Assembly: GCF_003410055.1 (NCBI RefSeq) | Contig: NZ_QUZK01000022.1 | Location: forward strand, 1 to 64,000 | DNA length: 64,000 nt | DNA from: Wenzhouxiangella sediminis | GTDB lineage: Bacteria > Pseudomonadota > Gammaproteobacteria > Xanthomonadales > Wenzhouxiangellaceae | Direction: 5' to 3' | Part shown: piece by piece, positions 73 to 48,181 of the stretch | Position numbering within the stretch: the first letter of the stretch is position 1 | Layout of the letters: every line of letters begins with the position of its first letter | Translations under genes and position numbers: made by a program | Notes under the pieces: model-generated | The model's input: the letters and a program-made list of their open reading frames with translations, nothing else | Told to the model about the DNA's origin: nothing | Databases searched by the model: none

Positions 73-843
73 TCACTGGCCACGCCCAATGCAATGGAAG
101 ACACAACTCCACACTGTACGCCGCGCCCATTCATGACAATTGGTACCTGGACCGATCAGACCATAATATGGTCTTTCTTGCTCAAACTTCCCCAAAAAGC
201 ATTGCTCCATGCAATCATTTTCATTGTCGTCAATTTCAGTACACGAATCGGGGTGGTAATAATCCTCGTCCGAGGTTGTCGGACGCCCTTGGTTCCAACC
301 CCCGCCGGTGGTTGTTTGGCCTCCGCACTCTATAGAGCCGTCTGGTGTTGTGGCGCAAAGAAAAGTATGAGAGTAATCAAGAAATCCCTTTGTTCCAGGT
401 GGCTCGTCTAGCGCTCGCCGACAAATCCAACTCGTTAGACCTAAAGGATCGATATATTTCGAGGGGCTTTGGAACGCGTAACCATACGTACTAAACCCAC
501 CGCTAAGTCCAATCGGATCACTCTGCACATACCGCCCGGTCTGCGGCTCATAATCCCGGAAGTAGTTGTAGTGCAAGCCGCTTTCAGCATCATAGTACTG
601 CCCGGGAAAGCGAAGATTGAACTCAAAGGCTTCGCCAGTTTTCTTTGGATCCTCATTCGGCGCCATTTCGCCAAAAGGATTTCTCCGGAACGACCACTCC
701 CAACGCTTTGATCCACTAGCATCAACAACCGCGCGCGGTGCCCCCAAGTGGTCAGCGTGGATGCTGTAAACACTTTGGCCAGACTCGTGGCATTCGCCGA
801 AAATCGTTAGCGTCAGAACGCGACCGAATGAGTTGGTGGGCAT
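73..843 (-). CDS. Rhs-family protein, orphan C-terminal fragment with possible toxin tip
   Basis: This 256-residue frame holds only the end of an Rhs protein. The conserved Rhs core is visible as HADHLGAPR (about residues 29-37), YNYFRDYEPQTGRYVQSDP (about 92-110) and the terminal DPLGL (132-136). After DPLGL come about 120 unrelated residues rich in Cys, with a SHTFL motif and an NCHEW motif. Such variable tips are usually toxins; the H...NCxxW layout resembles papain/NlpC-like folds, which is inference. Complete Rhs proteins exceed 1000 residues, so more than 80% is missing. The frame closes six bases upstream of the ATG, inside the adjoining repeat element, so the 5' part was lost at that element. 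Only 72 bases of window follow, so a downstream immunity gene cannot be judged. Confidence 0.75.
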   Translation of the reverse strand: MPTNSFGRVLTLTIFGECHESGQSVYSIHADHLGAPRAVVDASGSKRWEWSFRRNPFGEMAPNEDPKKTGEAFEFNLRFPGQYYDAESGLHYNYFRDYEPQTGRYVQSDPIGLSGGFSTYGYAFQSPSKYIDPLGLTSWICRRALDEPPGTKGFLDYSHTFLCATTPDGSIECGGQTTTGGGWNQGRPTTSDEDYYHPDSCTEIDDNENDCMEQCFLGKFEQERPYYGLIGPGTNCHEWARRTVWSCVFHCIGRGQ

Positions 844-1100
844 CAGGTTTCAGGAAAAGAACCGCGCCGTCGCCCCGGACATGATCCGGGGCCTCCCATC
901 AGCTGGTGCCTTCGTTTGGAAGGTCCCGGATCGGGGTCCGGGACGACGCTTCGCGTCGGTTCGGGGTTCGGACCACGACACTAGGACATGGCCGATCTGG
1001 GTTCTGCGCTCAGCGACTCCCTGCGTAACGATTTTCGGCAACACACTCACCGACTCTCCACTCGCTCCTGAACACTGAACCCTGAAACCTGAACCCCTAA
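843..1100 (-). repeat. Hairpin element, TTTCAGG/CCTGAAA heptamer family, copy 1
   Basis: On the minus strand this copy begins near 1100 with GGTTTCA-type units followed by TTCAGTGTTCAGGAGC, and it ends at 843-858 with TTTTCCTGAAACCTGATG. The two ends are inverted copies of the same heptamer. The roughly 200-base interior holds two further GGATCCGGG-like inverted motifs (about 875-895 and 928-945). It lies between the stop of etfD (29 bases away) and the truncated Rhs frame, both on the minus strand. The same entry and exit motifs recur at 24.5 and 37 kb, and the exit motif at 35.9 kb. Confidence 0.7.
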
Positions 1101-1128
1101 TCCCAGAGCCCTTCTCGTAGCTGCAAGG

Positions 1129-2724
1129 TCACAGATTGGTGTAGTTCGGCCCGGAGCCACCCTCGGGCGTCACCCAATCAATCACCTGGTAGGGATCGGC
1201 GATATCGCAGGTCTTGCAGTGCACGCAGTTGGCGGCGTTGATCTGCAGGCGCTTGCCGCCTTCGTCTTCGACCACCTCGTAGACGTTGGCCGGGCAGAAG
1301 CGGGTACAGGGGTTGCCGTACTCCTCTTCGCACCGGGTGAAGCACACGTCCGGGTCGATGACCTTCAGGTGCACGGGCTGGTCTTCGTCGTGTTCGGTCT
1401 GCGCGTAGTAGACGGAGGCGAGGCGATCGCGCGGCGGCAGGTCGCGGTCGACGTAGTCGAACTCGAGACCCTTCTCGTCGATCTTGCGGTACTGCTCATG
1501 GTCGGCGTGATTGGACAAGGTACGGGGCAGCTTGCCGGCTGTCGCCGTCTCGATGGCGGCGATCGACATGCCGCGCCACAGTCCCTTGTTGAAACCGGGG
1601 CGGATGTTACGAACCTTCTTGAGCTCGGCCATGATGTCGGAGTCGCGCAGCCGCTTGTCGAAGCCCTCGCTGCTGAGCTTCTCGCTGAGGTGTTCTGCGG
1701 CGAGCATGCCCGACTTCATCGCCTGGTGCGTGCCCTTGATCTTGGGCACGTTGAGCAGGCCGGCGGAATCGCCGATCAGCATCGCGCCGGGCATCTCGAC
1801 CTTCGGCAAGGACTGGTAACCGCCCTCGACCAGGGCGCGGGCGCCGGACGACAGGATCTCGCCGCCCTCGAGCAGCTCGTGCATCATCGGATGGTGCTTG
1901 AACTGCTGGAAGGCCTCGAAGGGCATGAATTCTGGGTCCTGGTAGTCCAGGCCGCAGACGAATCCGACCGCGACGCGGTCCTTGTCGAGGTGGTAGACGA
2001 AGCTGCCGCCGTAGATTTCGGAGGGCAGCGGCCAGCCGACCGTGTGCTGGATCAGGCCCGGCTCGACGCGGCCTTCCGGAAGGCGCCAGAGTTCCTTCAT
2101 GCCGATGCCGTAGGTCTGCGGGTCGCTGTCGGCGTCGAGCTTGTACTTCTTGATCGCGCGCTTGGACAGGTGGCCACGGCAGCCCTCGCCCAGCACCGTC
2201 ACCGATGCGCGGATCTCGATGCCCTGGACATAGGTGTCCTTCTCGTTGCCCTGCGCATCGACGCCCATGTCGCCGATGATCACGCCCTGGACCTCGTCGG
2301 CGTCGTTGTAGCTCAGGTCGGCGGCGGCGAAGCCGGGGAACAGGTCGACGCCCAGTGCTTCGGCCTTTGGCGCCAGCCAGCCGCACATCGCGCCGAGCGA
2401 GACGATGAAATTGCCGTGGTTTTTCTGCTGCGGCGGCGTGGGCAGCTTGCGCTTGCCGGTCTTCGACAGGTGCAGGAACTGATCCTTGCCGGCCGGCACG
2501 CAGATCGGCGGCGGATCATCGCGCCAGCCTTCGATCAGCGCGTCCAGCGGCTCGGGCTCGATGACCGCACCGGACAGGATGTGCCCGCCGATCTCGGCGG
2601 CCTTCTCGATCACGCAGACGTTGAGGTCGTCGGAGAGCTGCTTGAGCCGGATGGCGCAGGCCAGGCCGGCCGGGCCGGCACCGACGATCACCACGTCGTA
2701 TTCCATGATTTCGCGTTCGGACAT
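1129..2724 (-). CDS. etfD: Electron transfer flavoprotein-ubiquinone oxidoreductase
   Basis: The 531-residue product matches the normal length of ETF-QO, which passes electrons from reduced ETF (fatty acid and amino acid oxidation) to the quinone pool at the inner membrane. The N-terminus carries an FAD-binding dinucleotide fold (VVIVGAGPAGLACAIRL, from about residue 10). A second FAD/quinone-domain segment reads MLIGDSAGLLNVPKIKG. The C-terminal ferredoxin-like domain supplies the 4Fe-4S cysteines in CTRFCPANVYEV and CVHCKTCDIADP. No etfA or etfB is nearby. The first ATG (MSEREIMEY) is used; a second ATG six codons later is possible. Confidence 0.95.
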   Translation of the reverse strand: MSEREIMEYDVVIVGAGPAGLACAIRLKQLSDDLNVCVIEKAAEIGGHILSGAVIEPEPLDALIEGWRDDPPPICVPAGKDQFLHLSKTGKRKLPTPPQQKNHGNFIVSLGAMCGWLAPKAEALGVDLFPGFAAADLSYNDADEVQGVIIGDMGVDAQGNEKDTYVQGIEIRASVTVLGEGCRGHLSKRAIKKYKLDADSDPQTYGIGMKELWRLPEGRVEPGLIQHTVGWPLPSEIYGGSFVYHLDKDRVAVGFVCGLDYQDPEFMPFEAFQQFKHHPMMHELLEGGEILSSGARALVEGGYQSLPKVEMPGAMLIGDSAGLLNVPKIKGTHQAMKSGMLAAEHLSEKLSSEGFDKRLRDSDIMAELKKVRNIRPGFNKGLWRGMSIAAIETATAGKLPRTLSNHADHEQYRKIDEKGLEFDYVDRDLPPRDRLASVYYAQTEHDEDQPVHLKVIDPDVCFTRCEEEYGNPCTRFCPANVYEVVEDEGGKRLQINAANCVHCKTCDIADPYQVIDWVTPEGGSGPNYTNL

Positions 2725-2812
2725 GAACTTCGCAGGGGATTCGGATCAGGCCTCAAAGGATACAGCCAAGGCGCTGACGGTGTCAGCCGACCGCAGCGCT
2801 GCCTGCAGATCC

Positions 2813-3430
2813 CTAGCCGGCGAGAAGCGATCTCAGCTCGGACAGGACCGTCTCGAGCATCAGGGGCTGCGCTTCGGCGGTCGGGTGGATGCCGTCGTCC
2901 TGCAACATGCCCGGGCGCTGGAAGATGTCCTCGAGGAAGAACGGCAGCAGTTCGACGTCGAAGCGTTCGGCCAGGCGCGGATAGACCGCCTCGAAGCGTT
3001 CGATGTAGACCGGGCCCAGGTTGGGCGGCAGGCGGATCTGCATCAGGCCGACGCGGGCGCCGGCCGACTTGCCTTTTTCGATCAGGGCCGCCAGATTGTC
3101 TTCGGTCTGGGCCGGCGAAAGGCCGCGCAGTCCGTCGTTGCCGCCGAGGATGATCAGCAGCACGTCGGGATCGTGGCGCTCGAGCAACCCATCGATGCGC
3201 GTTACGGCACCGGCGGTGGTCTCGCCCGAGATGCTGGCGTTGACCACTTCGTGCTCGCCATCCAGCCGCTCGGACAGCAGGTGAACCCAGCCCGATTCAC
3301 GGGGGATGGAATAGGCGTCGGACAGACTGTCGCCAACGACCATCACCGTGGCGGCTTGCACGGCATGACCGAAGGCCAGCGCCGCGACCAGCACGGTGAT
3401 CCATGAAACGTAGGCAAATCGCTTGAACAT
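2813..3430 (-). CDS. tesA: Periplasmic acyl-CoA thioesterase I / arylesterase (SGNH hydrolase)
   Basis: The 205-residue protein is a GDSL/SGNH hydrolase. A signal peptide (MFKRFAYVSW onward) ends near AVQA|A at residue 26. Block I GDSLSDAY holds the nucleophile Ser35, followed by SISGETTAG, GGNDGLRG and the C-terminal DGIHPT that provides the catalytic Asp and His. Family members hydrolyse acyl-CoAs, esters and lysophospholipids in the periplasm. The start was placed at the ATG at 3430 because the frame further upstream only reads antisense to the ABC gene. Its ATG overlaps the ATG of the divergent ybbA-like gene by two bases, an arrangement related to tesA/ybbA of Escherichia coli. Confidence 0.93.
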   Translation of the reverse strand: MFKRFAYVSWITVLVAALAFGHAVQAATVMVVGDSLSDAYSIPRESGWVHLLSERLDGEHEVVNASISGETTAGAVTRIDGLLERHDPDVLLIILGGNDGLRGLSPAQTEDNLAALIEKGKSAGARVGLMQIRLPPNLGPVYIERFEAVYPRLAERFDVELLPFFLEDIFQRPGMLQDDGIHPTAEAQPLMLETVLSELRSLLAG

Positions 3431-4145
3431 GACCCAATCCGGTAAAGAGATCCTGTCGGCCCGACAGGTGGGATTTTCCGTCGACGCGCCCGGCGGGCGG
3501 CTCGACATCCTCAAAGATATCAGCCTGGACCTGAACGGCGGCGAAACGCTGGCCATCGTCGGGGCCTCCGGCTCGGGCAAGACCACCCTGCTGGGCCTGC
3601 TCGCCGGCCTGGATCGCCCGACATCCGGCGATATCCGGCTGATCGGCGCTGAACTCAAGTCGCTCGACGAGAATGCGCGCGCCCGATTGCGCAAGCGCCA
3701 CGTCGGCTTCGTTTTCCAGAGTTTCCACCTGCTGCCCAGCCTGACCGCGCTGGAGAACGTGATGCTGGCCCTGGAGATCGCGGGTTTCGACAAGCCCCGG
3801 GAGCGCGCGCTCGGCGCGCTCGACCAGGTCGGCCTGAGCCACCGCCTCGAGCACTACCCGCGCCAGCTCTCCGGCGGCGAACAGCAGCGCGTGGCCATCG
3901 CCCGCGCCTTCGCCGGCGAGCCGGAAATCCTGTTCGCCGACGAGCCCACCGGCAACCTCGACCAGCGCACCGGCGAGTCGGTGGCCGACCTGCTGTTCGA
4001 ACTCAACGAACGCCACGGCACGGCGCTCGTACTGGTCACGCATGATATGAGGCTCGCCCGGCGCTGCGGACGAGTGGAAGAAATCGAGGACGGCCGGCTC
4101 GTCGGACGCAGGAATGGGGCAGTGGCAGGAGCTTCAAGCGCATGA
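3429..4145 (+). CDS. ybbA: ABC transporter ATP-binding protein, YbbA/LolD-like
   Basis: The 238-residue ATPase has Walker A GASGSGKTT (about residues 45-53), a Q-loop region VGFVFQSFHLL, signature LSGGEQQRVAIARA, Walker B ILFADEPTGNLD and the H-loop LVTHD. It belongs to the MacB/LolD/YbbA group that works with FtsX-type permeases; the exported substrate is not known. The start is ATG 3429, with TTG 3423 an in-frame alternative; neither has a strong Shine-Dalgarno. The stop TGA (4143-4145) overlaps the ATG of a small frame that bridges to the permease gene. Divergent tesA supports the ybbA assignment. Confidence 0.93.
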   Translation: MTQSGKEILSARQVGFSVDAPGGRLDILKDISLDLNGGETLAIVGASGSGKTTLLGLLAGLDRPTSGDIRLIGAELKSLDENARARLRKRHVGFVFQSFHLLPSLTALENVMLALEIAGFDKPRERALGALDQVGLSHRLEHYPRQLSGGEQQRVAIARAFAGEPEILFADEPTGNLDQRTGESVADLLFELNERHGTALVLVTHDMRLARRCGRVEEIEDGRLVGRRNGAVAGASSA

Positions 4146-4351
4146 GCATTCTGTTCGACGGGCAAGATCTTGAAACGCAAAGACGCGAAGACGCGAAGAA
4201 AAGTCATTTGGAAACTCGGCTAACCCCCTGGAATCACATTGCAGGCGCGTGGCGATCTGCCAAGGGACCGAGAACGTCTTCTCTTTCACCCTTTGCGTCT
4301 TTGCGTCTTCGCGTTTCCAAGATTTTGAGGAACAAAGCCCTCCCAGCATGA
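4142..4351 (+). CDS. Possible bridging small ORF across a repeat element
   Basis: This 69-codon frame spans the whole gap between the ATPase and permease genes. Its ATG overlaps the upstream stop (ATGA at 4142-4145) and its own stop overlaps the permease start (ATGA at 4348-4351), so ribosomes could move through all three by translational coupling. The encoded peptide is basic and resembles no family I know, and most of it is translated repeat-element DNA. It may serve only to keep coupling after the element was inserted. That the protein has a function is doubtful. Confidence 0.35.
   Translation: MSILFDGQDLETQRREDAKKSHLETRLTPWNHIAGAWRSAKGPRTSSLSPFASLRLRVSKILRNKALPA
4167..4323 (+). repeat. 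Hairpin element with ACGC(A/G)AAG octamer arms
   Basis: The left arm (4167-4198) consists of ACGC[AG]AAG units and the right arm (4291-4323) is its inverted copy, ending TTTCCAAGAT. The arms match over about 32 bases with few differences, enclosing about 90 unrelated bases. The element sits between ybbA and ybbP, genes that usually overlap or nearly touch. A GCATGA hexamer occurs 21-22 bases outside each arm (4140-4145 and 4346-4351), which may be a target duplication or may only reflect the two ATGA junctions. Confidence 0.75.
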
Positions 4352-6804
4352 ACGCCACCACGCTGTCACTAAAGCTGCTGACCCGTCAGTCCCGCTCCGG
4401 CGCGCTGATCATGTTGTTCGCCGGGCTGGTCGTGGCCACGGCGGCGCTGGCGGCGGTGAGTCTGTTTACCGACCGGGTCGGGCGGGCGCTGGAGCGGCAG
4501 GCCGGCGAGGTGCTGGCTGCCGACCTGGTGGTGACCGGCCGCGAGCGACTGCCTGACGAATATCTGGACAAGGCATCCGAGCTGGGCCTGGAAACCGCCG
4601 AGATCGCGCTGCTGAGCACCGTCCTTTTTGTCGGCGAGGAAAGCCATCTCGTGGACCTCAAGGCCGTCACCGAGGGCTACCCCTTGCGCGGGCAGCTCAA
4701 GCTGGCCGACCGGCTCGGGGCGCCCGAGGAGGCGCTGGCCGGCATCCCCGAGCCCGGCACCGGCTGGATGGCGGCGCGAGGCCTGCGCCTGTTCGAGACC
4801 GACACCGGCGTGCAGGTCGACATCGGCCGCCGACCGGTCACGATCGAGCGCGTGCTCGCCTGGGAGCCCGACCGCGGCGGCAGCCGCTTCATGCTCGCCC
4901 CGCGCCTGATCATCCACATGGACGACCTGCTGGCCAGCGAACTGCTCGGCCCCGGCTCGCGCGTGCGCTGGCGCCTGCTGGTCGCCGGCAGCGAGTCGGG
5001 CGTGGCCGAGTTCCGGCGCTGGGTCGAGCCGCGCCTGGAAGAACGCCAGGACATCGAGACCGTCGCGGAAGCCGAGGCCGACACCGGCCGGGCGCTCGAG
5101 CAGGCGCGCCGCTTCCTGGGCGTGGCCGCGCTGACCGCGGTGATCCTGGCCGCCGCCGCGGTGCTGCTCGCCGCGCTTCGCTTCTCGCGCTCGCAGCGCG
5201 ACCTGGTCGCCCTGCTCAAGGCCTTCGGGGCCGAGGGCCGGCAGATCCTGCTGGCCCTGACCCTGCTGTTGCTCTGGCTGGCCCTGGCCGCGATTGCCGT
5301 CGGCGGGCTGCTGGGCTTCGGCGCGCAGGCGATCATCGGGCAGATCCTGGCCGACGGGCCGGCGGGCGAGCTGCCACCGGCAAGGCTCCTGCCCCTGCTG
5401 GGCAGCGGCAGCTTCACCCTGCTGCTGGCAGCCGGCTTCGCCCTGCCGCCGCTGGTCGCGCTTCGCGGCGTGGCACCCATGCGCATCCTCAATCGCTCGC
5501 TCGACACGCGGCCCGGCCTGGCCGGCGGGCTGTGGTTGCTGCCGATTCTCGGCGCCCTGACCATTCCGGTGCTGCAGCTCGGCAACCTGCGCCTGGCGAT
5601 GATCGTGCTCGGCGGGTCGGCCGTACTGGCCGCCCTGCTGGCCCTGGCGGCCTGGCTGGCGATGGGCCTGAGCCGGCAGCTTTCCAAGCGCACCCGGGCG
5701 GACTGGCGCTTCGGCCTGGCCGGCCTGCACCGCCGTCGCGGCCAGGGCATCATCCAGATCACCGCCCTGGGCCTCGGCCTGATGGCCCTCCTGCTGTTGA
5801 TGATCGTGCGTACCGAGCTGCTCGACCAGTGGCGCGGCAGCCTGCCGGCCGACACCGCCGACCATTTCGTGGTGAACATCCAGCCCGACCAGACCGAGGG
5901 CGTGCGCGAGGCGTTGATCGAAGCCGGCGCGCAGAACGTGCAGGTGCGGCCCATGGCGACGGTCAACCTCATCGAGGTCAACGGCGAGCCGCCGCCCGAT
6001 CACCGCTGGGCCGGCCAGGTCAACGTTTCCTGGATCGACCGCCTGCCGCCGGCCAACCGGGTCGTCGAAGGCGAATTCTTCGCCCCGGATGCCACCGGCG
6101 AGATCTCGCTGGCCAAGCGCTGGTCGGAGCGGACCGGCGTCGGCCTGGGGGACACCATGCTGTTCGAGGCCGGCAGCCGGCGCTTCGAAGCCACGGTGAC
6201 CAGCATGCGCGAGGTCGAGTGGGAGTCATTCAACGTCAACTTCTTCATCCTGCTCACGCCCTCGGCCGGCGAGGCCCTGCCGCACCAGTTCATCGCCAGT
6301 TTCCGCCTGCCCGAGGAGGCCGGCCCGCTGCGCGCCGTGCAACAGGGCTGGCCCAACGTCTCGATCATCGACATTGGCGCCCTGCTGGACCGCATCGGCG
6401 AGATCATCGACCGGGTCTCGCGCGCCGCGCAGGTGGTGTTCTTCTTCACCCTGGTGGCCGGCCTGGTGGTGCTGCTGGCCGCGCTGGAAGCCACGCGCGA
6501 CGAGCGCCGCCAGGAGGCGGCCCTGATCCGCGCCCTGGGCGCCGACGACGCGATGGTGCGGCGCGGCCTCCTGATCGAGTACGGCGCCATGGCCTTCATC
6601 GCCGCGGTGCTGGCCACCGGCGGCGCGGCGCTGACCGGCTGGCTGCTCGCCCGTGAGCTGTTCGAATTCGCCTACCAACCGTCCGGGCTGCTACTGGTCA
6701 CCGGCTTCCTGGCTTCCTTCGTGCTGGTGATCGGCAGCGGCTGGCTGGGCAACCGCTCGGTCCTTCGCACTTCCCCCATCCGCATTCTGCGCGCCGGCGG
6801 CTGA
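4348..6804 (+). CDS. ybbP: ABC transporter permease, YbbP family (FtsX/MacB-like)
   Basis: The 818-residue protein has the YbbP layout: one transmembrane helix near the N-terminus (LIMLFAGLVVATAALAAVSLF), a large periplasmic domain, then groups of helices (about residues 255-475) around a second periplasmic domain, and a C-terminal FtsX-like triplet (VVFFFTLVAGLVVLLAALEA and after) ending RTSPIRILRAGG. It should pair with the upstream ATPase. YbbAP-type transporters are linked to export of hydrophobic compounds, but the substrate cannot be read here. The start ATG 4348 was chosen because it begins the conserved MNATTLSLKLLTRQ segment; the frame is open further upstream through the repeat. Confidence 0.92.
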   Translation: MNATTLSLKLLTRQSRSGALIMLFAGLVVATAALAAVSLFTDRVGRALERQAGEVLAADLVVTGRERLPDEYLDKASELGLETAEIALLSTVLFVGEESHLVDLKAVTEGYPLRGQLKLADRLGAPEEALAGIPEPGTGWMAARGLRLFETDTGVQVDIGRRPVTIERVLAWEPDRGGSRFMLAPRLIIHMDDLLASELLGPGSRVRWRLLVAGSESGVAEFRRWVEPRLEERQDIETVAEAEADTGRALEQARRFLGVAALTAVILAAAAVLLAALRFSRSQRDLVALLKAFGAEGRQILLALTLLLLWLALAAIAVGGLLGFGAQAIIGQILADGPAGELPPARLLPLLGSGSFTLLLAAGFALPPLVALRGVAPMRILNRSLDTRPGLAGGLWLLPILGALTIPVLQLGNLRLAMIVLGGSAVLAALLALAAWLAMGLSRQLSKRTRADWRFGLAGLHRRRGQGIIQITALGLGLMALLLLMIVRTELLDQWRGSLPADTADHFVVNIQPDQTEGVREALIEAGAQNVQVRPMATVNLIEVNGEPPPDHRWAGQVNVSWIDRLPPANRVVEGEFFAPDATGEISLAKRWSERTGVGLGDTMLFEAGSRRFEATVTSMREVEWESFNVNFFILLTPSAGEALPHQFIASFRLPEEAGPLRAVQQGWPNVSIIDIGALLDRIGEIIDRVSRAAQVVFFFTLVAGLVVLLAALEATRDERRQEAALIRALGADDAMVRRGLLIEYGAMAFIAAVLATGGAALTGWLLARELFEFAYQPSGLLLVTGFLASFVLVIGSGWLGNRSVLRTSPIRILRAGG

Positions 6805-6811
6805 TCCCGGT

Positions 6812-8200: not shown

Positions 8201-8232
8201 AATTCCCGACGAACCTTCACCAAGGCAAGCGA

Positions 8233-9366: not shown

Positions 9367-9367
9367 A

Positions 9368-9772: not shown

Positions 9773-9794
9773 CTTCTCGCTCTCCTGCAGACGG

Positions 9795-20592: not shown

Positions 20593-20594
20593 CC

Positions 20595-24515: not shown

Positions 24516-24518
24516 GAT

Positions 24519-24738
24519 CAGGTTTCGGGTTTCAGGTTTCAGTGTTCAGGAGCGCCCGGAATACCGAGAACGCCTTGCCGACAACCCGCGCGCCGTGCTC
24601 ACCGGACACTCGATGGTGGCATCATCAATCTGGCGATCTGGTCGCCGACCAGACTCCGGACCCGATATTTTTTCCTGAAACCTGAAACCTGAAACCTGAA
24701 ACCTGAAACCTGAAACCTGAAACCTGAATCCTGAAACC
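24519..24738 (+). repeat. Hairpin element, TTTCAGG/CCTGAAA heptamer family, copy 2
   Basis: The left arm reads CAGGTTTCGGGTTTCAGG then TTCAGTGTTCAGGAGC. The right arm starts TTTTTTCC and runs as nine uninterrupted 7-base units (24674-24736), eight CCTGAAA and one CCTGAAT. About 110 unrelated bases lie between. It fills the gap between bdhA and a response regulator gene, both on the plus strand, starting four bases after the bdhA stop. Confidence 0.8.
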
Positions 24739-24755
24739 TTTATCCTTGGATCTCA

Positions 24756-32090: not shown

Positions 32091-32115
32091 CAGGTTTCAG
32101 GTTTCAGGTTTCAGG
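32091..32115. repeat. Single arm of TTTCAGG heptamer repeat, copy 3
   Basis: CAGG followed by three TTTCAGG units lies between truC (stop 21 bases away) and the M14 gene start. No inverted partner or TTTTCC boundary motif is present, so it looks like a remnant of the hairpin family. Confidence 0.6.
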
Positions 32116-34472: not shown

Positions 34473-34477
34473 GAGAA

Positions 34478-34555
34478 GGTTTCAGGGTTCAGGGTTCAGG
34501 TTTCAGGAGCGGGTCAGCACCGCTCCTGGAGCCTGACCCGAACCTGGAGTCTTCG
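34478..34555 (+). repeat. Hairpin element, TTTCAGG heptamer family, copy 4 (degenerate)
   Basis: Six bases after the hpd stop, GGTTTCAGGGTTCAGGGTTC and TTTCAGGAGC are followed by nested inverted motifs (CAGGAGCGG with CCGCTCCTG; GGGTCAG with CTGACCC). The usual TTTTCCTGAAACC exit is missing. It lies between hpd and hmgA. Confidence 0.65.
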
Positions 34556-35727: not shown

Positions 35728-35898
35728 TGGGTTTCGGGTTTCAGGTTTCAGGTTTCAGGGGCCAGTGGCGGCGATTCGGGATCGTTGCCGAAAAACCGGA
35801 TGACGTGCTGACTGCCACGTCGCCATGAGGCTCACCCCCGAAATCGGAATTCGTGTTGTTTTTCCTGAAACCCGAAACCTGAACCCTGAAACCTCAAA
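35728..35898 (+). repeat. Hairpin element, TTTCAGG/CCTGAAA heptamer family, copy 5
   Basis: Seven bases after the hmgA stop, the left arm (GGGTTTCGGG then TTTCAGG units, from 35728) faces an inverted right arm starting TTTTTCCTGAAACC near 35860 and ending ACCTCAAAC. About 100 unrelated bases lie between, including GTTGCCGAAAA, also found in copy 1. It separates hmgA from fahA. Confidence 0.75.
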
Positions 35899-35959
35899 CG
35901 CAATCTAGCGCCAACACGCTTACCAGACTCACAAGACACTCATTCGAGGCGAATCAATC

Positions 35960-36946: not shown

Positions 36947-36950
36947 AGAA

Positions 36951-37118
36951 GGTTTCAGGGGTTCAGGTTTCAGTGTTCAGGAGCACTTGGAGAGCCGGCG
37001 CATGTGACGTCGACAGGCTTGGCGCCGTGCAATCGGTTCGCCAGGAACGACACAACGGGATCCGGTACACCGGTTCCCTTTGGTTTTCCTGAAACCTGAA
37101 ACCTGAAACCTGAAACCC
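36951..37118 (+). repeat. Hairpin element, TTTCAGG/CCTGAAA heptamer family, copy 6
   Basis: Five bases after the fahA stop, GGTTTCAGGGGTTCAGG runs into TTCAGTGTTCAGGAGC, the same entry motif as copies 1 and 2. The exit is TTTTCCTGAAACC followed by further CCTGAAA units to 37118. The interior of about 95 bases is unlike the other copies. It separates fahA from maiA. Confidence 0.8.
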
Positions 37119-39223: not shown

Positions 39224-39241
39224 CCGGGCCGCTCCCAACCC

Positions 39242-39270
39242 TTGAACTGGCCGGGAGTTGACGCTATAAA
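39242..39270 (+). promoter_or_regulatory. Sigma-70 promoter upstream of candidate small RNA
   Basis: TTGAAC (39242-39247) and TATAAA (39265-39270) are separated by 17 bases. The predicted start is near 39277, 19 bases downstream of the OmpA-like gene stop. No open frame with a ribosome binding site begins before the terminator at 39382. Confidence 0.6.
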
Positions 39271-39276
39271 GTGAGT

Positions 39277-39412: not shown

Positions 39413-39471
39413 TGCGCGGGGCCGGACGGCTTCGCGCACACTCATGGACCCAACCGAAAAGGAGTCTGCCC

Positions 39472-39690
39472 ATGTTCGAAAGTCAGAAGGATCAGATGGA
39501 AATCATGCTCAAGGGCAACGAAGAATTCCGTCGCCTCTACAACCATCACCAGCAGCTCGAAAAACGGGTCGTGGCCGCCGAAAACGGTACGGCGCCGATG
39601 GAGGATCTGGCGCTGAACCAGCTCAAGCGCGAAAAGCTCCGCACCAAGGACCAGCTCACTCGAATGATGGAACAGGGCCAGGCCGCCTGA
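39472..39690 (+). CDS. YdcH-family (DUF465) small protein
   Basis: The 72-residue protein is helical and highly charged: NEEFRRLYNHHQQLEKRVVA and LNQLKREKLRTKDQLTRMM match the DUF465/YdcH pattern, a short antiparallel coiled coil with unknown function. AAGGAG precedes ATG 39472. It lies between a terminator upstream and another downstream, so it is a single-gene transcript, perhaps read through from the candidate small RNA promoter. Confidence 0.85.
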   Translation: MFESQKDQMEIMLKGNEEFRRLYNHHQQLEKRVVAAENGTAPMEDLALNQLKREKLRTKDQLTRMMEQGQAA

Positions 39691-39715
39691 CCCCGGCCGG
39701 AACCGATTCCTGCCA

Positions 39716-39745
39716 GACGCCCGGCCACCGCGCCGGGCGTCTTGC
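39716..39745 (+). terminator. Intrinsic terminator of the YdcH-like gene
   Basis: GACGCCCGG (39716-39724) pairs with CCGGGCGTC (39733-39741) around an 8-base loop, followed by TTGCGTTT. It lies 25 bases after the stop. Confidence 0.7.
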
Positions 39746-39838
39746 GTTTCGGGCCTGCCGACGGGAGCGCCTTGCTCCCGACGGACGGTTTGAGCTATCG
39801 TGGCCGGCTGGCAACCGACCCGACCAGAGCCCCTTCCA

Positions 39839-41212: not shown

Positions 41213-41215
41213 TCG

Positions 41216-41357
41216 GGTTGGCTGGTTTGCTCGTTTGCTGGTTCGCTGGTTGAAGACCACGGGAACCAGACGCACGAGCCAACTAGCCAACCAGCCAACT
41301 AGCCAACCAGCCAACTAGCCAACCAGCCAACTAGCAAACCAGTCAACGAGCAAACGC
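41216..41357 (+). repeat. Hairpin element with GGTTNGCT octamer arms
   Basis: Four bases after the cbs stop, the left arm is four to five 8-base units (GGTTGGCT, GGTTTGCT, CGTTTGCT, GGTTCGCT). After about 30 bases the right arm runs as alternating AACTAGCC and AACCAGCC octamers and ends at the start codon of the next gene. Arms are inverted with respect to each other. It separates cbs from the gamma-synthase/lyase gene. Confidence 0.8.
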
Positions 41358-41358
41358 A

Positions 41359-42507: not shown

Positions 42508-42549
42508 TCGAAGATCATGTCGTGATCAGGACTGATATGTTGTCGGGAC

Positions 42550-42705
42550 TCTCGCAAAGGCGCCAAGGCGCAAGGATCGCAAAGGAAATCAACACGGAAG
42601 AAAAGAAGTCCGCGCCCCGAAGAAAATCGCTGCTGACAACTTTCTTTTTTCTGTTTTCCTTTCACTTTTTCATTGCGACCCTTGCGCCGTTGCGCCTTTG
42701 CGAGA
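42550..42705 (+). repeat. Hairpin element with CGCAAAGG-type octamer arms
   Basis: A 33-base left arm (42550-42582, starting TCTCGCAAAGGCGC) and right arm (42673-42705) are inverted copies with three differences. Inside, purine-rich (GGAAGAAAAGAAG) and pyrimidine-rich (TTTCTTTTTTCTG) tracts could extend the pairing. It resembles the element between ybbA and ybbP. It lies between the PLP enzyme gene and the FHA gene. Confidence 0.8.
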
Positions 42706-42755
42706 AATCCGTCCCAGAGCGCTAGAATAAACACCGGATCCACCCCGAGACACCC

Positions 42756-43163
42756 ATGCAATTTCGCCTGAAAGCCGCCTCCGGCCCGCACACGGGGAAG
42801 AACTTTCCGCTCGAGGAAGAGGACACTTCCATCGGCTCGGCCGAGGGTTCCGACATCCAGCTCGACGGTCTGATGGAGCGCCACGCGCGGATCGTTTACG
42901 ACGGCGAGACCCTGATGCTCGAGCCGGCCGGCAAGGCCTGGGTCAACGGCGAGCCCGTGCAGCGCCGCCCGCTGAAATCGGGCGACGAGATCCGGCTCGG
43001 TGAGCATCGTTTCGTGCTGCAGGCCCCGGGACTGCGTCCGCCGAGCGTGCTCAAGGACACCGAGGCACGCCCTTCGCGCACCTGGCTGTGGACGGCCATC
43101 GGCGTGGCCCTCGCCGCCGGCGGCGCGGCGGCCGCTTACTACTACTTCTGGCCGCTGCAGTAA
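42756..43163 (+). CDS. FHA-domain protein with C-terminal membrane anchor
   Basis: The 135-residue protein is an almost bare forkhead-associated domain (EEEDTSIGSAEGSDIQLDGL, MERHARIVYDGETLMLEP, WVNGEPVQRRPLKSGDEIRLG), which binds phosphothreonine. A C-terminal hydrophobic helix (WLWTAIGVALAAGGAAAAYYYF) makes it a tail-anchored protein with the FHA domain in the cytoplasm. The usual SxxH-like motif appears as MERHAR. It could read out the Ser/Thr kinase in this window, but there is no direct link. Confidence 0.85.
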   Translation: MQFRLKAASGPHTGKNFPLEEEDTSIGSAEGSDIQLDGLMERHARIVYDGETLMLEPAGKAWVNGEPVQRRPLKSGDEIRLGEHRFVLQAPGLRPPSVLKDTEARPSRTWLWTAIGVALAAGGAAAAYYYFWPLQ

Positions 43164-43177
43164 GAGATCAGAACAAG

Positions 43178-43256
43178 GGAACCACGGAGGACACGGAAAT
43201 CACGGAGTGAATCAAGAAGGAATTTTTCCCGTGCATTCCGTGTTTTCCGTGGTTCC
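43178..43256 (+). repeat. Hairpin element with CACGGANNN nonamer arms
   Basis: The left arm (43178-43206) carries CACGGA every nine bases; the right arm (43228-43256) carries TCCGTG every nine bases. The arms match at 24 of 29 positions and are separated by about 21 bases. It lies 15 bases after the FHA gene stop and 40 bases from the convergent truD stop. It follows the same design as the 7- and 8-base elements. Confidence 0.75.
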
Positions 43257-43295
43257 ATTCTTTTCAGGCGGCGCCCCCACGAGCCGGAACCCGAC

Positions 43296-44324
43296 TCATT
43301 CGTAGTCCACCAGCTCGCGCAGCACAGAGGTGGCGTAGCTGCCGGTTCCCAGCGAAAAGACCAGCTTCAGCGTGCGCTCCTCGGGGAAGGACCACTCGAG
43401 ATCGCCCACGCGCATGCGCAGGGGGCGCCGCTCCTGCTTCATGCCGAACTTCGCCAGGCCCTCGACCAGTTCGCGGTGGGCCTCGAACTGCCGGTTCTCG
43501 ATCTCGGCGGCCTCGCCTTCGGCGGGACTGTCGCCCTGCCCCGGCAGCGGACCGCTGGGATGAATATCCTGTTCGGCGCAGCGGCGGACCTGGTCGGGAT
43601 CGTCCGGATCGGCGGCGAAGAAGGAGCGACTGCCGTCGAGCATGGCCAGGTCGCCATCGATCAGGCGGTTCCAGTCGCCGCGGCGGATGCGCTCGTCGAG
43701 CACGTGGTTGAACACCAGGCTACGCGCGGCCGACAGGTAGAAGCCGCGCTTGATCTTGGACGGCTTGCGGCGCATCTCGCCGCGGAAGAGCGCGAGAGCG
43801 CGAGCAATGTTGTTGCCGCCGAAACGCTGCTCGCCGAAGCCGTTGGGCACGCCGTGGTCGCGCACCGCGGCCAGCCGTTCCTCGAGCGCCCCGAGGTCGC
43901 CTTCCAGTTCGCGCACGACCAGCTCGAAGCGGTTGCCGCGCAGGCGGCCGCGCTTGATCTTGCGCGAGCTGCGCGAGGCCGACTCGATGGTCACGCCGTC
44001 GATGCGCCACTGCGACCAGTCGGGCGAGTCGGTTCCGGGGAGATGGATGGAAAAATACTGCCGGGTGACCGCGTTGCGGTCCTTGAGGCCGGCAAAACCG
44101 ACCTGGCGGATGTGCACACCGGCGGCGCGCGCCAGGTCGGCGGCCACGTCCACCGTATTGCGTTCCCGCTTGGCCACCCATAGCCAGAGGTGCTCCCCCT
44201 GGCCGTCGGGTTCGTGCCCGAGCACCTCGTTGACCGCGAAGTCCTCGGGCTCGAGGCGGATTCGCCCGGTGGCGGGAGGCCCGCCCCAGGCGAATCCGGG
44301 TTGACGAGCGTTGTCTTCGCTCAC
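43296..44324 (-). CDS. truD: tRNA pseudouridine(13) synthase
   Basis: The 342-residue protein is TruD: EDFAVNEVLGHEPDGQGEHLWL, the catalytic aspartate motif VGFAGLKDRNAVTRQYFSIH, the insertion domain with HGVPNGFGEQRFGGNN, and SAARSLVFNHVLDERI. It modifies U13 of tRNA-Glu. The start is GTG 44324, which overlaps the stop of the upstream exported protein gene (GTGA). No ispF or surE is next to it, unlike the common gammaproteobacterial order. Confidence 0.93.
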   Translation of the reverse strand: MSEDNARQPGFAWGGPPATGRIRLEPEDFAVNEVLGHEPDGQGEHLWLWVAKRERNTVDVAADLARAAGVHIRQVGFAGLKDRNAVTRQYFSIHLPGTDSPDWSQWRIDGVTIESASRSSRKIKRGRLRGNRFELVVRELEGDLGALEERLAAVRDHGVPNGFGEQRFGGNNIARALALFRGEMRRKPSKIKRGFYLSAARSLVFNHVLDERIRRGDWNRLIDGDLAMLDGSRSFFAADPDDPDQVRRCAEQDIHPSGPLPGQGDSPAEGEAAEIENRQFEAHRELVEGLAKFGMKQERRPLRMRVGDLEWSFPEERTLKLVFSLGTGSYATSVLRELVDYE

Positions 44325-44749
44325 TGATTGTCCTCGACGCGGTAGACCACCGTGTTGTAGGGCGCCCGCCGATCCCTGCCGGTGAAGTGCGCGCCGATGT
44401 AGTAGGTCTTGCCCGCCTCGACGACGACCTCGATCTCGTTGATGTCGTCGCGTTCGCGCAGGCGACCCCGCATCGAGCTCAGCCCGCCGGGATTGGTGAT
44501 TTCCGGCGACACCGTCAGCGTGTACTTGCCCGGCTTGAGCCAGAACACCTCGCGCGGGATGATCTGCTGACCGTCGATGGCGACGACCCGGACCGGGTAG
44601 ATGTCGCGGGCGGGCTGGGCCGGCGCACCGACGATGGAGCCCGACGCCTCGCCGGAATCGGCGAACGGCAGTTCGGCCAGCGCCGGCAACGCGGCCAGGC
44701 CGATTGCCAGGCCGGCCACCAGGTTGATGAGCATCCTTCTTGATTGCAT
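44321..44749 (-). CDS. Exported protein of unknown function
   Basis: The 142-residue protein has a signal peptide (MLINLVAGLAIGLAALPALA, cleavage near residue 25) and a beta-rich body (DIYPVRVVAIDGQQIIPREV, KYTLTVSPEITNPG, EIEVVVEAGKTYYIGAHF). The last part resembles small periplasmic proteins with a KTYYIGA strand, but I cannot name a family. GAGGAGG precedes ATG 44749. Four CTGA direct repeats lie upstream, next to a winged-helix regulator gene. Confidence 0.75.
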   Translation of the reverse strand: MQSRRMLINLVAGLAIGLAALPALAELPFADSGEASGSIVGAPAQPARDIYPVRVVAIDGQQIIPREVFWLKPGKYTLTVSPEITNPGGLSSMRGRLRERDDINEIEVVVEAGKTYYIGAHFTGRDRRAPYNTVVYRVEDNQ

Positions 44750-44828
44750 GACAACCTCCTCGTGCTGTCTTGTTCGTGAATGTGCCGACAGGATGGGCCT
44801 TCGCCGCCGCCCCGACCATGGACATTCA

Positions 44829-44864
44829 CTGAAATCGTCCTGAACTTGTCCTGAAATCACCTGA
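44829..44864 (-). promoter_or_regulatory. Four CTGA direct repeats one helical turn apart (OmpR-type site)
   Basis: CTGA occurs at 44829, 44840, 44851 and 44861, with spacings of 11, 11 and 10 bases, mostly in the context TCCTGAA. Direct repeats at this spacing are what OmpR/PhoB winged-helix domains bind. The site lies 80-115 bases upstream of the exported protein gene and 14 bases after the stop of the winged-helix regulator gene. Confidence 0.55.
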
Positions 44865-44877
44865 GAGCCGCGTGATA

Positions 44878-45750
44878 TCAGCCCTCGCGCGCCAGGCGCG
44901 CTCGCAGTGACGGCCAGGCCTCGACCAGATCCTCGGCCATGCTCCCCGCCACCGCGCGCACATCCAGCGGCCTGCCCGGCTCGCCGGTGACCGTCGACGA
45001 CCACACCACGCGACCGGGCGGGACGGCCAGCAGCCGCATCTCCGCCTGCCAGCCCTGCTCGGCCCGACCGGTGACGGCGCCCTCGATCAGCAGTTCGACA
45101 CCCAGGTCCCCGGCCAGGGCGGAAACCACGTCCTCGCGGCCCAGGTAGGGCCTGAGGCTCGTGCGTCCGAGCAGCTCGAGCCCTTCGACCGGTCGTGCCA
45201 GCAATTCGGCCAGCAGGGTGTCGGCCATCAGCAGGCCGACATGCTCGGGCAGCTCGGCGCTGCGCTCATAGTTCTCGAAAGGCAGGATGGCCAGGCTGGA
45301 CTCACCGGGCGGTTCCGGCGCCGTGCCGTCCAGGGCCAGCCAGAGGCCGTAGCCCGCGCCCAGGAGCACCGGCACGAGCACGGCCAGCAGCATGGCCGCC
45401 CGCCGTCGCCCGCCTCGCGACCCGCCGTCGACGCGCACCTCGGCGTCCAGGCGATAGCCGCGCCGCGGCACGGTCTCGACCAGGTCATCGGGACCCTCGA
45501 CCGCGCGCACGGATTGTCGAAGCTCGCGCATCAGCGCGGCCAGGCCCGATTCGAAGTCGACCACGGCCTCTTCGCCCCAGACCGCGGTGTAGAGCCGCTC
45601 GCGGGGGATTACTTCGCCGGCGTGGGCCAGGAGGTTCTCCAGCAGGCGGGCGACCTGGGGCCGCAGGGACGTCTCGCTTTCGGCGTGCTCGTTGCGCAGC
45701 CGGCCGTCCTCGAGGGTGAAGACCAGATTGGCGAAGCGGTAAGCGTGCAT
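44878..45750 (-). CDS. Membrane winged-helix regulator, CadC/ToxR-like
   Basis: The 290-residue protein has an N-terminal OmpR-type DNA-binding domain (LRPQVARLLENLLAHAGEVI, RERLYTAVWG, LVETVPRRGYRLD), one transmembrane helix (AAMLLAVLVPVLLGAGYGLWL, about residues 117-138) and a periplasmic domain (AILPFENYERSAELPEHVGLL) like those of TolB/adenylate-cyclase-type regulators. It would bind DNA directly from the membrane and needs no phosphorylation. Likely targets are the exported protein gene downstream and itself (inferred from the repeats at 44829-44864). Confidence 0.88.
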   Translation of the reverse strand: MHAYRFANLVFTLEDGRLRNEHAESETSLRPQVARLLENLLAHAGEVIPRERLYTAVWGEEAVVDFESGLAALMRELRQSVRAVEGPDDLVETVPRRGYRLDAEVRVDGGSRGGRRRAAMLLAVLVPVLLGAGYGLWLALDGTAPEPPGESSLAILPFENYERSAELPEHVGLLMADTLLAELLARPVEGLELLGRTSLRPYLGREDVVSALAGDLGVELLIEGAVTGRAEQGWQAEMRLLAVPPGRVVWSSTVTGEPGRPLDVRAVAGSMAEDLVEAWPSLRARLAREG

Positions 45751-45761
45751 CTTTCGGACAA

Positions 45762-46046
45762 TCAGCCCCGGGGCTCGGCGTCCTCGGGATCGACGATCAG
45801 GAAGAACTCCTCGTCTTCACGGATCAGGCCGAGCTCCGAGCGGGCGCGTTCTTCGATGGCTTCCAGGCCGGCGCGCAGGTCTTCGACCTCGGCGGCTAGG
45901 GCCTCGTTGCGCTTGTGCAGTTCGTCGTTTTCGGCCTGCTGCTCTTCGACCAGCTCGCGCAGCGTGCGCACTTCACTGAACTGGCGCCACAGCTGTACCT
46001 GCAGCGCGAGCAGAATGATCAGCAGGGCGATCAGGATGACGCGCAT
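45762..46046 (-). CDS. ftsB: Cell division protein FtsB
   Basis: The 94-residue protein has the FtsB layout: one N-terminal transmembrane helix (MRVILIALLIILLALQVQLW), a leucine-zipper coiled coil (LRELVEEQQAENDELHKRNE, LAAEVEDLRAGLEAIEERAR) and the conserved end ARSELGLIREDEEFFLIV. FtsB forms a divisome subcomplex with FtsL and FtsQ. Its start lies within the end of dapE (16-base overlap); it is more often found next to eno and ispD, which are not here. Confidence 0.9.
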   Translation of the reverse strand: MRVILIALLIILLALQVQLWRQFSEVRTLRELVEEQQAENDELHKRNEALAAEVEDLRAGLEAIEERARSELGLIREDEEFFLIVDPEDAEPRG

Positions 46047-47215
46047 GACGCACCCCCGGACTTGAGCATGCCCTCGATGATGCGCCGGTAGAGGCCGGGC
46101 AGCAAGACCAGTTCGTCGACGGCGATGCACTCGTCAACCTGGTGGATGGTGGCATTGACCGGGCCCAGCTCGACGACGGGGATGCCGAGCGGGCCGAAGA
46201 AGCGCCCGTCGGAAGTGCCGCCGCCGGTGTCCGGCTTCGACTCGATCCCCAGCAGCTCCCGGCAAGCCGTTTCGACAACGCCCGGCAGCGGTCCGGACGC
46301 CGGGCCGAACGGTTCGCCGGAGACGCGCCAGGAAAGCGCCCAGTCGCCGGGATCGGCGTCTTCGATCAAGTGGCGGATGCGAGACTCGAGCGCATCGGAG
46401 CGAGTGTTGGGGTTATTGCGCAGGTTGAACCAGATTTCGAGCTCACCGGGCGTCACGTTGTCGGCCCCGGTGCCGGCACGGACGTTGGAAACCTGAAGCC
46501 GTGTGGGCGGAAAGAACTCGTCGCCGTCATCGAAGTCCAGCCGGCCCAGTTCGGCCAGCAAGGGGCCGGCCCGGTGCACCGGGTTGTCGCGCGGATCGGC
46601 ATAGGCCGTGTGTCCCTGGATGCCGCGAATGGTCAGCCGCCCCTGAATCGAGCCGCGCCTTCCGATCCGGATGACGTCGCCCAGGCGGTCCCGGCTGGAC
46701 GGTTCGCCCACCAGGCAGGCGTCGGGCATCATCCCGCGCTTCTCCAGCTCGGGCACGACGGCCCGCACGCCGTGGCGCGCCGGGCCTTCCTCGTCGGAAG
46801 TCAGCAGCAGCGAAACCGTACCGGGGTGATCGGGATGCGCCTCGAGAAACGCCTCCAGCGCCAGCACGAAAGCGGCAACGGACGACTTCATGTCCGCCGC
46901 ACCCCGGCCGTAGAGCACGCCGTCCCGGATTTCCGGCTCGAAGGGCGGCGAAGCCCAGTTCGACTCCGGCCCCGGCGGCACGACGTCGGTGTGGCCGACG
47001 AGCATCAGGTGCGGCGAACCGCTGCCGTGCCGGGCCAGAAGATTGTGCACATCCTCGACGTCGATCGACTCGACCGCCATCCCCGCGGCCTCGAGCCGGT
47101 CGGCGATCAAGGGCTGGCAGCCGGCGTCCTCGGGCGTGACCGACGCGCGCGAAATCAGTTCGCGGGCCAGTGTCAGCACCGCGTCGCGCTCGGCTTGGGA
47201 AGGGGCGGTCGCCAT
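46031..47215 (-). CDS. dapE: Succinyl-diaminopimelate desuccinylase
   Basis: The 394-residue M20 metallohydrolase removes succinate from N-succinyl-LL-DAP in lysine and cell-wall synthesis. Metal-site motifs are LMLVGHTDVVPPG, GRGAADMKSSVAAF, TSDEEGPARHG and the C-terminal TIHQVDECIAVDEL. The dimerisation domain contains GHTAYADPRDNPVHRAGPLL. Start ATG 47215 is chosen because upstream sequence is repeat DNA (GGTT units). Confidence 0.93.
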   Translation of the reverse strand: MATAPSQAERDAVLTLARELISRASVTPEDAGCQPLIADRLEAAGMAVESIDVEDVHNLLARHGSGSPHLMLVGHTDVVPPGPESNWASPPFEPEIRDGVLYGRGAADMKSSVAAFVLALEAFLEAHPDHPGTVSLLLTSDEEGPARHGVRAVVPELEKRGMMPDACLVGEPSSRDRLGDVIRIGRRGSIQGRLTIRGIQGHTAYADPRDNPVHRAGPLLAELGRLDFDDGDEFFPPTRLQVSNVRAGTGADNVTPGELEIWFNLRNNPNTRSDALESRIRHLIEDADPGDWALSWRVSGEPFGPASGPLPGVVETACRELLGIESKPDTGGGTSDGRFFGPLGIPVVELGPVNATIHQVDECIAVDELVLLPGLYRRIIEGMLKSGGASCASS

Positions 47216-47232
47216 GGGAGTGAAGCTTACCG

Positions 47233-47279
47233 CATTGGCTGGTTCGTTGGTTCGTTGGTTGGTTGGTTGGTTGGTTGAG
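47233..47279. repeat. Single arm of GGTT-based tandem repeat
   Basis: TTGGCTGGTTCGTTGGTTCG is followed by five GGTT tetramers. The units resemble the octamer element at 41.2 kb, but there is no inverted partner. It fills the divergent gap between dapE and mtfA, the only one of these repeats found in a divergent gap. Confidence 0.6.
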
Positions 47280-47322
47280 GATCGTCGATAATCGGGGGCC
47301 GGAAGTCGAGGCCTGATCTGCA

Positions 47323-48072
47323 ATGCTGAACAAATGGCGCCAGCGACGCTGGCAACGCAAGGTCGACGCGGCCCTGCCCTCGCCCGAGGATGTCGCGGCC
47401 GTGGTCCGGCACTTTCCGGTCCTGGCCGGCATCGAGGGAGAATCAGCGCATCTGCTGCGCCGTCGCGCGGCCGAGATCCTGGCTGCCAAGACCTTCCTGG
47501 GCGCAGGCGGCCTGGAGCCGGGCTACGAGGACTGCCTCGCGGTCGCCCTGCTCGCCGCACGGCCAGTGCTCGAGTTGGGCATCGACGCCTACGCCGATTT
47601 CCACACCTTCATCCTCTATCCCGACGAATTCATCGCCGAAGAGGAATTCGAGGACGAGGCCGGCGTGGTCAGCCACGGCCGCGACCTGCGCGCCGGCGAG
47701 GCCTGGGCGCGCGGTCCGGTGGTGCTGTCGATGGCCGACGTCATGGACTCGGCGCAGGGCCAGGGCTTCGACGTCGTCGTCCATGAACTCGCCCACCAGA
47801 TCGACCAGCTCAACGGCGACATGGACGGCTTCCCGCCCCTGCCACGCTCGATGAACCCGGATGAGTGGACCCGAAGCTTCTCCGAGGCCTTCGACCGAAT
47901 CAACGCCGCCCTCGACCGCGACGAGGAACCCGCCATCGACCCCTACGCCGCCGAATCACCCGCCGAGTACTTCGCGGTCACCAGCGAATACTATTTCGAT
48001 GCGCCCGCATGGCTGGAACAACACGAGCCGGCAATCTTCAGCTTGCTACGGAGCTTCTACTCAGGCAATTGA
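47323..48072 (+). CDS. mtfA: Zinc peptidase MtfA
   Basis: The 249-residue protein matches MtfA (M90), a cytoplasmic zinc peptidase that in Escherichia coli binds the Mlc repressor and so affects glucose uptake. The zinc motif is VVHELAHQIDQLNGDMDG, followed by the downstream Glu region YAAESPAEYFAVTSEYYFD. The N-terminal helices include LAGIEGESAHLLRRRAAEIL. It is divergent from dapE with the GGTT repeat between them. Confidence 0.93.
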   Translation: MLNKWRQRRWQRKVDAALPSPEDVAAVVRHFPVLAGIEGESAHLLRRRAAEILAAKTFLGAGGLEPGYEDCLAVALLAARPVLELGIDAYADFHTFILYPDEFIAEEEFEDEAGVVSHGRDLRAGEAWARGPVVLSMADVMDSAQGQGFDVVVHELAHQIDQLNGDMDGFPPLPRSMNPDEWTRSFSEAFDRINAALDRDEEPAIDPYAAESPAEYFAVTSEYYFDAPAWLEQHEPAIFSLLRSFYSGN

Positions 48073-48138
48073 TCACGACAGCCGAGTGCACCGCACATCC
48101 CCAACCCAAGCGCGGCGCAGCCGCCCGCAACGACCTCC

Positions 48139-48181
48139 GCGCCGAACCAAAAAACCAAAAAACCAAACAACGAAAAAACCA
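48139..48181. repeat. Tandem AACCAAAA octamer repeat
   Basis: Five octamer-like units (AACCAAAA twice, AACCAAAC, AACGAAAA, then AACC) follow the mtfA stop by about 70 bases. The GTCAGCGGCCAGCGGC stretch beyond (from 48187) is a separate short direct repeat. This single arm lies between convergent mtfA and the alkyltransferase-like gene. Confidence 0.6.

Follow-up and report, generated by a model that had tools for sequence, protein, structure and literature searches.

The 64,000-nt stretch of Wenzhouxiangella sediminis DNA considered here (the window; G000:C20:1-64000, G000 being the genome of this bacterium) carries hairpin elements whose two arms are built from short tandem units, and these elements are a real feature of the genome. 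In each, a unit of 7-10 nt is repeated about 2-12 times to form the left arm, an interior follows, and an inverted right arm closes the element. On balance, we lean towards regarding them as families of non-autonomous foldback-type mobile repeats. The arms would then be the module that is recognised or copied by a machinery acting in trans, the interior would travel as a passenger, and the elements would persist chiefly in the space that follows stop codons, where they should cause the least harm; slippage would alter the length of the arms after dispersal. Three properties taken together favour the dispersal of foldback-type units by an agent: arms that behave as if drawn from a pool, interiors that recur, and orthologous sites that are empty.

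About a quarter (848,838 bases) of the W. sediminis genome (3,506,010 bases in 54 contigs; completeness 99.8%) was sampled with a detector of inverted versus direct pairs of tandem arms with periods of 7-12 nt. At its final settings, 48 inverted and 2 direct pairs were found, whereas five Markov-4 controls modelled on all 849 kb contained 6, 6, 4, 4 and 5 inverted and 4, 2, 1, 11 and 3 direct pairs; the arm pairs thus exceed chance, which an earlier sequence-only reading of the window had proposed as a check. Stricter versions of the detector missed known sites, and the settings were then relaxed using the window itself (8 inverted and 0 direct pairs at the final settings), so that the DNA outside the window, about 785 kb with 40 inverted and 2 direct pairs, serves as the independent test. 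Stretches of seven relatives yielded 16 inverted pairs and 1 direct pair, and 80 fah loci, some of them from the same species, contained 20 inverted and 4 direct pairs. Nested arms were counted repeatedly among the 48 pairs, which merge into 45 elements, two of them within called open reading frames (ORFs); at least one pair (C14:58401-58660), inside a called gene, looks like a product of chance. The 14-mer TTTCAGGTTTCAGG is present in 382 exact copies in the genome (overlaps counted), compared with 0 for its reversed-letter control, and the number of TTTCAGG dimers ranges from 0 to 382 over 30 genomes of the genus, many of them incomplete, with W. sediminis being the richest. Its copy number is probably a lower bound: contigs C11, C15 and C19 start in TTTCAGG arrays, a sign that the assembly may break at them.

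All unit types named in the sequence-only reading (TTTCAGG, ACGCRAAG, GGTTNGCT, CGCAAAGG and CACGGANNN) can be read in the window at the sites described below. Genome-wide, the repertoire comprises a 7-nt family (TTTCAGG with TTCCGGG-type variants), the 8-nt families ACGCAAAG, CGCAAAGG, TTGGTTTT and GGTTGGCT, and the longer families CACGGANNN (9 nt) and CACAGATGAA (10 nt). The tandem units of the arms have an A/GG outer end, and in the 8-10 nt families the outer flanks appear, by eye, to be specific to the family. Uninterrupted units most often number four in left arms (20 of 43), and two or four in right arms (16 each). The polarity of the arms is pronounced: 148 TTTCAGG-type arms from the sampled W. 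sediminis DNA and that of the relatives G009 and G016 form 43 inward pairs and no outward neighbours (within 420 nt), with 13 same-strand neighbours and 62 solo arms, the latter bearing out the one-armed sites noticed earlier. Read inward from the left end, the left-arm units contain more G than C in 37 of the 48 W. sediminis pairs (equal in 10, fewer in 1) and in 46 among 60 pairs from other genomes (equal in 9, fewer in 5). Within a TTTCAGG element, left and right arm resemble each other no more than arms taken from different elements do (0.310 versus 0.360, p=0.92), and their lengths are uncorrelated. Copying from one arm to the other within an element is therefore unsupported, and the arms act as draws from a genome-wide pool.

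Unique interiors had been assumed to be part of the design, a rule that fails: an all-against-all profile search and alignments revealed two interior classes that recur at unlinked loci. Iterated profile searches covering 1,678,151 bases returned 13 class I and 18 class II hits, confined to W. sediminis, G016 and G009. While 16 of these 31 hits are the seeds, picked from two-armed elements, the other 15 have a unit within 45 nt on both sides in ten cases, on one side in three, and on neither in two. Class I interiors are enclosed by TTTCAGG arms, whereas at C9:57552 such an interior lies between arms of the TTCCGGG type; arm and interior can hence part. Class II interiors (e.g., C7:104983 and C4:47092) contain, inside the arms, two inverted hairpins (GGGCGGCTNNGCCGCGA) resembling repetitive extragenic palindromic (REP) sequences.

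Comparison of orthologous junctions, several of which are empty or filled by the same design with another unit, indicates that the elements come and go between species at the same places. Among the matches listed in a protein search, the fah product is nearest to those of Wenzhouxiangella sp. KhS_metabat.34 (98%), a gammaproteobacterial metagenome-assembled genome (97%) and Wenzhouxiangella sp. 15190 (91%). The HPPD/hmgA junction has no element in G025, L012, L015, L031 and L022, and several different units in W. sediminis, G010, G024, G018, L013, G026, L014, L016 and L017. In G027, this junction aligns with that of W. sediminis through the interior (flank identity 80-89%); shared interiors in distant relatives, which the sequence-only reading had named as a sign of ordinary conserved untranslated regions (UTRs), were in general not seen apart from this case. 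The fah/maiA element (36950-37117) is absent in L009 and L011, and the site at 24518 carries no element in G027, G010, G024, G026 and G018; in G009 (flanks 93-95%) it holds TTCCGGG-type arms that retain the outer CCTGAAA end. By eye, site 4175 is occupied by three families (ACGCAAAG in W. sediminis, AAATCCG in G016 and CACGGA in G027), and site 43172 has CACCGAA-type units in both arms in G016. Units differ between genomes: same-unit TTTNNGG dimers read TTTCAGG in 119 of 120 cases in W. sediminis and TTTCCGG in seven of seven in G027. Among near relatives, arrays vary in length (about 8 versus 2-4 units at C3:88147), and one inner array present in G016 corresponds to one unit in G009 (KhS). 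The multi-copy families, element-free orthologous sites and different families at one junction all speak for the dispersal envisioned in the sequence-only reading, and one design with many units is compatible with its suggestion of one mechanism.

With respect to simple GC3-based gene calls, 41 elements lie between called genes, 28 of them between same-strand, nine between convergent and four between divergent genes. Most elements are thus indeed located between same-strand genes, as had been noted, yet this is no excess, as the 649 gene pairs themselves comprise 435 same-strand, 108 convergent and 106 divergent ones. Elements between same-strand genes are nearer to the preceding stop than to the next start in 25 of 27 cases (p=6e-6; one of the 28 was excluded because its distance was >300 nt), and in 18 of 27 (p=0.12) when 15 nt are allowed for the ribosome site. 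Tolerance of insertions may explain this stop-proximal placement.

Several observations weigh against the foldback reading, some of them concerning the agent that it invokes. Profile searches of the W. sediminis genome gave no match to RVT_1, Y1 (PF01797) or IS110; RVT_1 is likewise without a match in G009 and G016, and Y1 is present in nine of 30 genus genomes. The rve family has five matches in W. sediminis. The two rve ORFs in the sampled DNA are without an arm within 3 kb; at C14, solo arms lie at distances of about 3.7 and 4.5 kb. Genomes G012 and G025, with 67 and 59 pattern matches, lack RVT_1, Y1, IS110 and rve altogether, an absence that is weaker evidence in view of their draft status. 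No transposase was seen in the elements, as the sequence-only reading had stated; its idea that longer copies might enclose a gene for a transposase, a REP-associated tyrosine transposase (RAYT) or a reverse transcriptase gained no support, with neither RVT_1 nor Y1 detected and no gene-enclosing copy found where neighbouring arrays of TTTCAGG-like 7-mers face inward at a distance of 400-6000 bases in the DNA sampled from W. sediminis, G009 and G016. The 4.2-kb contig C11, with arrays at both ends, was considered as a gene-carrying copy and rejected, since its ORFs are housekeeping-like and its arrays lie on the same strand. Comparison of the sampled W. sediminis DNA with itself detected no long dispersed repeat of high identity, the longest match being 741 bases at 72%. 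Target-site duplications of 4 nt or more were not seen in 42 elements, at least seven of them with an end set inside an array (0 versus 0.76 expected for 4 nt); for duplications of 2 nt, the same set gave 14 versus 9.57 expected (p=0.07). No target consensus beyond A/GG was found in the flanks.

Further difficulties lie in the elements and junctions themselves. Some elements have interiors of neither class, and at C7:101131-101407 and C14:134298-134455 arms of two unit types are interleaved in the order L1 L2 R1 R2, which is not derivable from simple nested insertion. Near relatives mostly share their elements, and no insertion event was caught. The units of G010, G012 and G026 are mixed, with TTTCCGG being common among the matches listed. 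At site 24518, a first inspection by eye pointed to a switch of the unit on a kept interior, a reading not upheld by interior alignment and shuffling: the G009 interior resembles that of W. sediminis along 26 nt, with no equal among 2000 shuffles, yet it resembles the class I copy at C14:139646 as well (score 33 versus 30), and the G016 interior there is unlike that of W. sediminis (p=0.43). An arm switch and the arrival of a different element in place of the old one are hence equally likely. If arms do change their unit on kept interiors, this would offer an uncommon insight into concerted change in bacteria.

Errors of replication might also suffice, with no transposase involved. Short seeds could expand into arrays by slippage, and a switch of template at a hairpin or from one dispersed array to another could place copies elsewhere and keep them inverted; template switching is able to create and maintain hairpins (PMC8794818). 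The variable array length at C3:88147, the inner array of G016 that is a single unit in G009, the lack of a target duplication and the lack of an enzyme tied to the arms are all in keeping with this explanation, which we nevertheless consider rather improbable, as the paired arms of a TTTCAGG element show no more similarity than arms of different elements and are uncorrelated in length, as interior classes recur with their arms at unlinked loci, and as junctions which elsewhere are short and empty can contain a complete hairpin. Selection offers another route. A strong stem behind a stop codon might stabilise or insulate the message, and a junction would then be refilled by any family at hand. 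When the junctions of the window were matched, where possible, to those of five relatives, which are not independent of each other, junctions occupied in W. sediminis proved to be occupied in 11 of 37 comparisons, often by other units, and those empty in W. sediminis in one of 55 (Fisher p=0.00013; 0 of 2000 when junctions were permuted). This excess also counts in favour of the foldback reading. Filled junctions mostly fold with z values of -2 to -10 and empty ones with values near 0 (30 mononucleotide shuffles), although the filled site 24518 of G016 is also near 0. A preference of insertion for certain junctions would, however, yield an identical pattern, many orthologous junctions are empty, and a strict two-arm criterion, to the detriment of any hot-junction interpretation including our own, removes the excess (3 of 25 versus 5 of 67, p=0.68). 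We therefore judge maintenance of the hairpins by selection to be unlikely.

Two further proposals seem to us far less probable. A telomerase-like reverse transcriptase, as in DRT10, might write arms onto broken ends that are later joined. The inward polarity that was observed (43 to 0) is what one would expect once ends bearing G-rich caps have been joined; the G-biased units and the lack of a target duplication also fit. DRT10 makes tandem-repeat DNA, with a repeat of 9 nt in one system and a motif length that varies by system, and the available text of that report (PMC12632851) does not describe writing into chromosomes. The missing RVT_1 match in W. sediminis, a clear difference from DRT10, and in G009 and G016, together with interior classes that recur along with their arms, makes this origin very improbable. 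As a separate observation on reverse transcriptases, all nine RVT_1 matches of genome G018 lie within about 30 kb (C1:3792391-3820990), several of them with equal scores. Ordinary conserved UTRs or terminators with chance repeats, finally, would account for stems behind stop codons and for the HPPD/hmgA junction common to W. sediminis and G027, but hardly for 48 pairs against 4-6 in the controls, 382 copies of one 14-mer, and other junctions that are empty or exchanged; we give this view almost no credence.

A similar design has already been published for GGGAATC repeats. Rehm et al. (2015; PMC4692102, cited here, like the other articles, from a part of its text) reported dispersed, mostly intergenic GGGAATC/GGGNATC heptamer arrays in Xanthomonas and Nostoc, most commonly four units long, with 70 convergent inverted pairs in Xcc and 75 in Xac. 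On average, 28 nt separate these arrays from the 5' gene and 160 nt from the gene that follows; they were read as quadruplex-forming simple repeats, generally without an association with mobile elements. As far as that account goes, the W. sediminis elements are alike in that heptamer arrays are inverted, face inward and follow the 5' gene at a short distance. They differ in their letters, which do not provide the GGG tracts needed for quadruplexes: TTTCAGG has only GG and ACGCAAAG or CACAGATGAA no GG, although TTCGGGG-type variants do hold G tracts, and the GGGAATC unit is absent from W. sediminis. What the present analysis adds are the shared interiors, the empty sites, the coexisting unit families and the exchange of families at a junction. 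Within the order, GGGAATC dimers were detected in 23 of 151 genomes, and 30 loci taken from these contain seven inverted pairs (two of them representing one place and one another unit) and one direct pair. In G071, a genome of the same order, the dimers are strand-biased, with seven on the forward and 207 on the reverse strand.

The W. sediminis elements also share with foldback-type elements the inverted arms of short tandem repeats around a variable middle. The arms of eukaryotic foldback transposons (FB) are much longer than those found here. Galileo is a eukaryotic transposon of this type with a P-type transposase (PMC3573991), and it differs, to the extent covered by the available text, from the W. 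sediminis elements, which are bacterial and in which neither a transposase nor a target duplication was found. REPINs with their RAYTs and miniature inverted-repeat transposable elements (MITEs) are likewise small, intergenic, inverted, non-autonomous and multi-copy. W. sediminis, however, has no Y1 match, its arms consist of short tandem units rather than GTAG-tagged REP hairpins, and no target duplication was seen in the 42 elements, some with misplaced ends. The resemblance to MITEs moved by DDE-type transposases extends to multi-copy elements with a shared interior, although only in the two classes, to which not all elements belong. TAACTGA heptamers of the Beggiatoaceae are dispersed intergenic arrays as well; MacGregor (2015; PMC4679880) describes them as repeated in direct orientation, apart from a single inverted case, and as lying for the most part immediately before start codons. 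The comparison also took in a genome of Thiomargarita that contains MITEs. CGTC-tagged palindromes, reported without a dedicated transposase (Di Nocera et al. 2013; PMC3733652, in part), have look-alikes, by eye, beside some W. sediminis arms, yet they are a separate repeat without tandem units. Such a CGTC-like palindrome adjoins TTTCAGG arms also at about C3:97991-98090, and this copy has many matches in G009 and G016. None of the titles and abstract openings listed in searches of the open-licence literature concerned the Wenzhouxiangella elements, no paper on intergenic repeats of this genus was found there, and a search of open-licence papers for the literal repeat letters gave one, unrelated match.

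Going further, we tentatively suggest, as an idea that we hold to be rather doubtful, that there might be one unrecognised bacterial foldback class with interchangeable tandem units and inward G-rich polarity, which spreads through the Xanthomonadales and further afield with no need of reverse transcriptase, Y1, IS110 or rve enzymes, the published Xanthomonas quadruplex repeats being its arms. If this were true, the simple repeat described in 2015 would become the arm of a mobile class, and the question would arise as to what moves repeats with units that vary by species in genomes lacking four of the usual enzyme families. Across the phylum, the superfamily B pattern occurs in five of 299 genomes and is too strict to gauge the spread. 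In a viral collection, 19 contigs were matched by a 23-mer, and the detector counted 5 inverted and 19 direct pairs there; the contigs L331 (3783-4018) and L333 (6690-6925), which are look-alikes, each carry an inward GTTTCAG-type pair with a 118-nt gap.

Within the window, the TTTCAGG family is represented at several places. The site at 845-1111 has a short left arm (845-854), two GGTTCGG units (958-971) and a right array at 1067-1111, with a CGTC-like palindrome, by eye, at about 862-957. The elements at 24518-24747, with a right arm of about nine units, at the hmgA/fah junction (35729-35899) and at the fah/maiA junction contain class I interiors. A solo arm of 3.6 units is found at 32091-32115, and the HPPD/hmgA junction (34477-34548) retains a left arm (34477-34507) and, by eye, a decayed right arm. 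Elements with other units are that of the 8-nt unit ACGCRAAG (4175-4314; arms 4175-4199 and 4291-4314), those of the 8-nt units GGTTNGCT (41216-41355) and CGCAAAGG (42550-42705; outer flank TTCT/AGAA), and that of the 9-nt unit CACGGANNN (43172-43262). One-armed are a TTGG-type array (47235-47277) and a AACCAAAA array (48145-48181), the right-arm type of the TTGGTTTT family. Searched at gathering scores, Rfam gave a single match over the window, a tRNA. An 11-base tandem repeat of the CTGAAATCGTC type at 44829-44858 adjoins the start of a called reverse-strand ORF.

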